Source: Promethearchaeota archaeon
GTDB taxonomy: Archaea; Asgardarchaeota; Lokiarchaeia; Sigyniarchaeales; SOKP01
NCBI GenBank assembly: GCA_019057865.1
Contig: JAHLWP010000005.1
Span: 1 to 64,000 of the forward strand
Direction: 5' to 3'
Length of the DNA: 64,000 nucleotides
In this document: positions 3,165 through 4,088 of the stretch, one piece after another
Layout of the letters: each line of letters opens with the position of its first letter
Numbering within the stretch: position 1 is the first letter of the stretch
The notes under the pieces: model-generated
Told to the model about the DNA's origin: nothing
The model's database searches: none
What the model saw: the letters and a program-made list of their open reading frames with translations, nothing else
Translations under genes and position numbers: made by a program

Positions 3165-3311
3165 TTTAATTTAAAATAATACAATCAATTTTTTTGAAAA
3201 AATGATAAAAGGATTTAACTCATTTATAACTAGATGTTCTTATTAATATATAGAAGAGTAACAAATAGCAAATTAGTTAAATTTTTGAATTCTTAAAAGA
3301 ACGGAAAGGAA

Positions 3312-4088
3312 ATGGTTGATATCACATATAAAGTAGTTTTTAATGGTCAGATCGATGACAATTTGAGAAGTAAGATTGATAACGGATTTTTAGAAGAAGT
3401 AATTGATGATTCACAAACAAATGTTGTAATAGGAGTAGATTTCTATGCTAAAAATTTTAATCTCTATGGTAAAGAAATAAAAGCTCAAGTTTGGATTGTA
3501 AATCAAGGGCAAATGTTTAAGACTATTAAAGCTATGTACTATAAAGGTGCTAATCTTGTAATATATGTGAAATCTAATAACTCATCTACATTTGAAAAAT
3601 TAATAGATTCCTTCAAAAATGCTAAGATTAATCCAAGTCATATAGTTCTAATAGAGAACACAGAGGATTTTACTGAGGTTTTTTTTAAATATGTAATTGT
3701 AATTACTTTGTATCATGATGGTTTAATAAGTGCTAGTACATTTAGAGAGAGACAATTGGTTTATGAGAAAGGCAATAACCCACAATTTACAGTATTAAGT
3801 GATTATTTAGAATCAGAAGAATATGAAATTAAAAATTTAAAAAATTATCTAAGGATAAAAGAGGAGGAAATTGAAGAATTCAGAAAGTTAGTTAAATTTA
3901 AAGATAAACAGATAAATAATTTAAAAGATTCCCTCAAATCGAAAGACAAACTCATAAGGTCACAAATTAATGAAATGAAAATTATAGCGAATTCGGTAAA
4001 AATTAAAGAAAAGGAACTTGAGGATCTAAGAAAAGAATTAAAGCTTAAGGATAAGCAAATAAATGGTTTAAAGAATACGAAAACTTAG
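3312..4088 (+). CDS. Rab/Ras-like pseudo-GTPase with C-terminal coiled coil
   Basis: VVIGVDFYAKNFNLYGKEIKAQVWIVNQGQMFKTIKAMYYKGANLVIYV matches the Rab core TIGVDFxxKxxxxxGKxxKLQIWDTAGQExFxxIxxxYYRGAxGxIxV, but P-loop, DTAGQE and NKxD are absent; heptad-like C-terminus. Confidence 0.75.
   Translation: MVDITYKVVFNGQIDDNLRSKIDNGFLEEVIDDSQTNVVIGVDFYAKNFNLYGKEIKAQVWIVNQGQMFKTIKAMYYKGANLVIYVKSNNSSTFEKLIDSFKNAKINPSHIVLIENTEDFTEVFFKYVIVITLYHDGLISASTFRERQLVYEKGNNPQFTVLSDYLESEEYEIKNLKNYLRIKEEEIEEFRKLVKFKDKQINNLKDSLKSKDKLIRSQINEMKIIANSVKIKEKELEDLRKELKLKDKQINGLKNTKT

Follow-up and report, generated by a model that had tools for sequence, protein, structure and literature searches.

The open reading frame at the start of Table 1 encodes a protein of 258 residues in which a Rab-derived domain with degenerate or deleted guanine nucleotide-binding motifs is followed by a long coiled coil. 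It was found in a 64,000-nucleotide stretch of a Promethearchaeota genome (GCA_019057865.1, contig JAHLWP010000005.1, positions 1 to 64,000; the window). The parts that handle GTP were lost, a coiled coil was gained and selection keeps the gene, and the product is therefore probably a fixed adaptor, not a switch. A probability of roughly 0.6 was given to the full reading, in which the protein is a class (i) pseudo-GTPase that arose from a Rab with a zinc-ribbon tail (Zn-Rab) and works as a nucleotide-independent, dimeric Rab-like adaptor.

Table 1. Features of the pseudo-Rab gene and its surroundings, in window coordinates.
Feature	Residues	Coordinates	Strand	Basis or remarks
Whole ORF, Rab-derived pseudo-GTPase domain and coiled-coil tail	258 aa	3312..4088	+	Pfam and PDB matches; 85%-identical ortholog at L028:3881-4627
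P-loop (G1) position, GQIDDNLRS	12-20	3345..3371	+	GxxxxGK[ST] reduced to its first Gly; GRIDDNLKN in ortholog
Switch I / RabF1, VVIGVDF	38-44	3423..3443	+	Val for Thr; RabF1 IGVDF intact; F44 of triad kept
G3 position, WIVNQGQ	61-67	3492..3512	+	Without the catalytic Asp, Gly and Gln of the Rab motif WDxxGQE; W61 of triad kept
RabF3-like motif, YYKGAN	76-81	3537..3554	+	Y77 of triad kept
G4 position, ENTED	115-119	3654..3668	+	NKxD in GTPases; STED in ortholog
alpha5 remnant, FTEVFFKYVIVITLYHDGLISASTF		3669..3743	+	Directly after G4; about 33 aa missing relative to Zn-Rabs (hhalign E = 1.4e-16)
Coiled coil, about 14 heptads, LKxKDKxI repeats	161-255	3792..4076	+	Periodicity; AlphaFold helix
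Upstream non-coding stretch, alignable between orthologs		3189..3307	+	AT-rich; ATATATAGAAG element; GGAAAGGA before ATG
Roadblock/LC7 protein, next gene downstream in both genomes	135 aa	4250..4657	+	PF03259, E = 3.9e-16; ortholog 90% identical

Rab homology and the state of the G motifs

The frame was intact from its ATG to its stop, exactly as in the original prediction. Upstream of the ATG it stayed open for just five more codons. A concealed P-loop, whether upstream or out of frame, was ruled out, as no GK[ST] P-loop occurred upstream of the ATG in any frame. Pfam Ras (PF00071) matched the protein at 28.5 bits (E = 1.3e-6; curated gathering cut-off 21.6 bits). The best PDB match by phmmer was Sec4 (E = 9.8e-8), followed almost exclusively by other Rabs (Rab1, Rab8, Rab4, Rab10), and hhalign against the Rabs of the same genome gave a probability of 96.4 (E = 1.1e-9). 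Residues 27-119 form the part that aligns with Rab GTPases, the alignment starting past the P-loop. GTPase-fold homology was present at the level of sequence and of profile, and the earlier statement that the protein tracks the Rab/Ras core was borne out. No viral homologs of the gene were found.

Two AlphaFold runs with alignments of 2-3 rows (the protein, its ortholog and a single eukaryotic Rab exon obtained by scanning viral contigs) gave mean pLDDT values of 50 and 43, and the greater part of the domain scored below 50. Foldseek searches of the PDB with these low-pLDDT models returned nothing meaningful. Because such shallow alignments gave no usable G-domain model, the predicted Rab-type fold is argued from sequence and profile homology. 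That AlphaFold returned no Ras fold with 2-3 sequences would fit a differently folded protein that resembles Ras by chance or through its composition. This we consider hardly credible, given a Pfam score above the cut-off, a PDB match at E ~1e-7, an hhalign E of 1.4e-16 over 118 columns and tree support of 99/96 (below). One contig classed as viral (L099, IMGVR_UViG_3300025035_000958) carries a Rab gene split by an apparent spliceosomal intron, and for that reason its listing among viruses is probably an error and the DNA eukaryotic.

Alignment columns conserved to 70% or more in 28 relatives with a P-loop were scored in the protein. Nucleotide-binding columns were mostly lost (G15, K16, T17, the switch-I Thr, the G3 Asp and Gly, the G4 Lys and the G5 Ser), leaving the first P-loop Gly (G12) and the G4 Asp (D119). 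Columns of the interswitch and framework were mostly kept (K7, I40, G41, K47, G53, W61, F69, G79, A80), and RabF1, IG(V/I)DF, and the hydrophobic triad F44/W61/Y77 were present in both orthologs. With nucleotide columns lost and the framework and effector triad kept, a constitutive Rab-like adaptor is therefore favoured. Retention of the triad and RabF1 may reflect core packing rather than binding.

Single motifs agreed with this census. The P-loop GDASVGKTS of Rabs in the same genome aligned by hhalign to a segment that lacks GK[ST], V39 stood at the switch-I Thr position, and IVNQGQ replaced the DTAGQE-type G3 motif; these three substitutions had been foreseen. The claim that every nucleotide-binding motif is gone needed correction at one site. 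It was right for G1, the switch-I Thr and G3, all degenerate, and for G5, which is deleted, but G4 has lost its Lys alone, and the Asn and Asp of NKxD survive in NTED. In the ortholog the Asn is lost too (STED), and its G1 (GRIDDNLKN) and G3 (WILSQDQ) motifs are equally absent. In both proteins G1-G4 are degenerate and G5 is deleted, and the GxxxxGK[ST], DxxG, NKxD and SAK motifs of an active Rab are missing.

A single gap of about 33 residues separated G4 from alpha5 in comparison with the nearest relatives, and the SAK/G5 motif was deleted within it. We take this gap to be the loss of alpha4 and beta6. A five-stranded remnant is conceivable because beta6 is the edge strand of the Ras fold. 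The retention of G12 and D119, and of N116 in the window protein, leaves some room for a highly divergent G protein that still binds nucleotide through a non-canonical pocket. Such binding is improbable, since G15, K16, T17, the G3 Asp and Gly, the G4 Lys and the whole of G5 are missing in both orthologs and N116 is Ser in one of them.

The genome contained 69 PF00071 matches and about 65 Ras-family genes. Every strong or weak Ras match had GxxxxGK[ST] except the present protein and two fragments, one due to a frameshift (C28) and the other to a contig end (C27). The pseudo-Rab was the sole P-loop-less protein among these genes; further P-loop-less Rabs were sought in the genome and rejected, all weak Ras matches proving to have the loop. 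The 258 residues include no Cys, hence no C-terminal prenylation site. Many Asgard Rabs of the same genome likewise end without a C-terminal Cys.

Origin and conservation

The best matches outside were Rab-like GTPases of 261-266 residues from other genera of the family, which end in a CWxC...CCxC tail (Zn-Rabs: L027/L104, L080/L107, L079/L105, L103/L106). Their P-loops were intact (GFGGVGKT, GYGGVGKT, GMGAVGKT, GRGGTGKS). Against a profile of three Zn-Rabs, hhalign gave a probability of 98.8 (E = 1.4e-16) over residues 27-144 (118 columns), and the alignment ran beyond the Ras core into a shared segment, LFELATALAMYHKGMITENEY in the window protein and FFKYVIVITLYHDGLISASTF in the Zn-Rabs. Zn-Rabs were the closest proteins by BLAST, hhalign and tree, and the alpha5 signature was recognisable in both (xMYHKGxIT in Zn-Rabs, LYHDGLIS here). 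They differed in keeping GxGGVGKT/GRGGTGKS, DxxG, (N/A)KTD, SAR and the zinc-ribbon tail, all of which are missing from the window protein, where a coiled coil takes the place of the tail.

The branch of the pseudo-Rab was very long in the trees. Its grouping with a degenerate Rab, L053, in a first tree (98/91) was rejected as long-branch attraction: when L053 was removed, or its own relatives were added, the protein moved to the Zn-Rab family, which the ortholog pair joined with 99/96 support in the tree with L053 relatives. Since profile and tree agree on the nearest relatives, a P-loop-bearing Zn-Rab of the sister genera is the likely ancestor type. The Zn-Rab family was absent from the genus of the pseudo-Rab, which may have inherited the gene vertically, other lineages having lost it, or received it from another genus. 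The predicted descent from an Asgard Rab is supported, with a Lokiarchaeal origin.

A close homolog occurred in one other genome, Ca. Lokiarchaeota YT5_1216 (G005; JAEOTZ010000045.1, GTDB contig collection; L028:3881-4627, 85% identity), in searches that covered 227 phylum and 65 family genomes. Both frames were open across 248 codons, and that of the ortholog stopped 10 codons earlier at its 3' end. The pair gave dN = 0.076, dS = 0.544 and dN/dS = 0.139 (bootstrap 95% 0.082-0.212), a value from a single pair of orthologs because just 2 of the 227 genomes carry the gene. Genes next to it gave 0.08-0.28 for the same two genomes, a comparable range. Third positions dominated the changes per codon position in the domain [18,14,39] and in the coil [6,4,17]. 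From the ratio and this third-position excess it follows that the gene is under purifying selection and not decaying. Conservation is shallow, with two species carrying the gene. The original prediction had called the gene retained and named the lack of an ortholog, or a neutral dN/dS, as contrary evidence; an ortholog was found and the ratio was far from neutral.

The narrow distribution, the very long branch, the shorter 3' end of the ortholog and a decayed CBS gene nearby are what one would expect of a decaying duplicate still open by chance. The selection data largely refute this, as the upper bootstrap limit of dN/dS was 0.21, the third-position excess extended over domain and coil, both frames were open and the upstream DNA was still alignable; we hold a pseudogene to be very unlikely.

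Coiled coil, locus and putative function

The predicted C-terminal coiled coil is real. The last 98 residues followed a strict hydrophobic period of 3.5 residues that none of 5000 shuffles reached, one heptad position was hydrophobic in 13 of 14 heptads, and the LKxKDKxI units were spaced by multiples of seven. AlphaFold gave a single helix over residues 169-256 with pLDDT ~94 over most of it. In the ortholog the coil was 91% identical and ended 10 residues sooner at a TAA.

In the favoured reading, a P-loop-bearing Lokiarchaeal Zn-Rab (Rab domain and CWxC...CCxC tail) would have been the starting point. It would have lost the guanine nucleotide-binding motifs and the edge element alpha4/beta6, and its tail would have been swapped for the long coiled coil. 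The coil would dimerise the protein, which would offer a fixed, nucleotide-independent Rab-like surface (RabF1, F44/W61/Y77) to Rab-binding proteins. Possible targets include Rab effectors and regulators of the roadblock/longin type, among them perhaps the adjoining Roadblock protein, and the role would be that of an adaptor or tether, not a switch. The role of scaffold or decoy for GTPase partners put forward in the original prediction is likewise putative. A passage in PMC8458453 (citing Merithew 2001) describes the hydrophobic triad as a main determinant of Rab effector binding.

Downstream gene order was common to both genomes (Roadblock, nitroreductase, HD protein, onward). Other members of the genus had the nitroreductase gene but lacked the pseudo-GTPase and Roadblock genes upstream of it. 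A spacer of 161 bp lies between pseudo-Rab and Roadblock genes, and the latter seems to be transcribed separately. Their adjacency was not accepted as proof that they function together: by a rough estimate, roadblock-GTPase neighbours occur in the genus at about chance frequency among roadblock loci. As a rule, the GTPase genes of MK-D1 do not share operons with Roadblock genes (PMC10933270). Neighbours not being clearly enriched, and MK-D1 showing this pattern, the adjacency is weak evidence for partnership, and the Roadblock protein is a possible, and the nearest candidate, partner. A Ras-like gene beside a Roadblock gene recalls pairs of the MglA-MglB type. Unlike in those, the G domain here cannot plausibly cycle, the GTPase motifs being missing from the Ras-like neighbour, and the pairing is drawn from adjacency in two genomes.

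The protein might instead pair obligately with an active small GTPase in a Rag-like heterodimer, the dead subunit serving as interface and the coil pairing with another protein. The genome offers about 65 P-loop-bearing Ras-family proteins as candidates, Rag-like pairs are found in an operon in MK-D1 (PMC10933270), and the coiled coil may be heteromeric. No active GTPase gene adjoined the pseudo-Rab in either genome, its neighbour coding for the Roadblock protein, and we consider this arrangement unlikely, though worth keeping in mind.

Further upstream in the window, a CBS-domain-like gene was split into two frames (1000-1335 and 1364-1747) with about 50-60 middle codons missing. The protein is intact in the related genome (280 aa, L028:249-1091), and the split is either a decayed gene or an assembly fault.

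Relation to known pseudo-GTPases and Rab-like proteins

Class (i) pseudo-GTPases are established in eukaryotes (CENP-M, p190RhoGAP pG1/pG2 and fungal dynein LIC; PMC5593906), and for p190RhoGAP pG1 the absence of nucleotide binding was shown (PMC5593906). They share with the present protein a Ras-like domain with degraded G motifs, and the known ones have a regulatory or structural role. They are eukaryotic and of other lineages, whereas this protein is archaeal, Rab-derived and coiled-coil bearing, and its lack of binding is predicted from sequence. Structural descriptions exist for Asgard Rabs and Roadblocks (PMC10933270), and archaeal RabF motifs were analysed earlier (PMC4915359). A search of the open-access literature found no reports of Asgard pseudo-GTPases. 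With canonical Asgard Rabs (Thor-Rab, PMC10933270; L010 and L013 of the same genome) the protein shares the domain, RabF1 IGVDF, YYKGA and the triad; it differs in its degenerate nucleotide motifs, the deletion of alpha4/beta6/G5 and the lack of Cys.

Searches with L053 led to 15 proteins, encoded by 14 family genomes, that join a Rab-like domain to a second domain of about 165 residues, called EFWGHCSN after a motif in it (loci within L112-L137, and e.g. L108:1698-2894, L121, L122, L123, L129, L133, L136). G motifs were damaged in all 15, and unfused sister Rabs keep theirs. Some fusions had P-loops reading GDRSVPKT, GDDSAAKT, GDESAEKS, GDASTEKT, GEESSQKT or GAGGVGRT; others had a loop of the GDxSEGKS type with damaged G3, G4 and G5. 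Searches of Pfam and the PDB gave no match to the EFWGHCSN domain. Matches to it occurred in 64 of the 65 family genomes, often in several copies each, and it is also joined to TPR-like repeats, CBM96, transmembrane-like and other modules (L138, L140-L143 and many more).

In these fusions (L112-L137), as in the pseudo-Rab, a Rab-like domain with damaged G motifs has acquired a module at its C-terminus. They form a separate tree clade, their degeneration is milder and varied, and the acquired module is a domain other than a coiled coil. Several adjoin different unfused Rabs with intact P-loops in the tree, so the motif losses were not a single event. This suggests that conversion of Rabs to non-switching modules recurs in Lokiarchaeia, with the present protein as the extreme. 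The broader idea, that Lokiarchaeia repeatedly turn Rabs into nucleotide-independent scaffolds upon gain of a C-terminal module, is put forward tentatively, at somewhat less than even odds. The pseudo-Rab would be its most extreme case and the EFWGHCSN fusions a second set, larger in number.

Two other odd Rab-like genes were noted. One (L109:4810-5460, G002) has a damaged P-loop, GDPEVGKAN, with Ala for Thr/Ser, and has a Roadblock gene about 700 bp away. The other (G000:C63:14678-15517, L166) is a 280-residue frame that resembles a circularly permuted Rab-like G domain, in the order beta3/G3 (WDIAGQE), G4/G5, then beta1/P-loop (GSAAVGKS)/switch I, with a hydrophobic, transmembrane-like end. 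No missing N-terminal half was found upstream of it.

Asgard archaea are rich in Rab-like GTPases, few of which have known partners or functions. A Rab kept by selection and apparently devoid of GTP-binding motifs suggests that part of this repertoire may act as protein-protein adaptors, and the pseudo-Rab could be used as a constitutive bait for regulators and effectors of Asgard Rabs. With the intermediate series, from P-loop-bearing Zn-Rabs through partly broken fusions to full loss in the pseudo-Rab, the path from switch to scaffold can be tested. If Lokiarchaeia do turn Rabs into scaffolds repeatedly, regulation by pseudo-GTPases of the Ras superfamily would have an Asgard origin that is separate from, or older than, the eukaryotic one.
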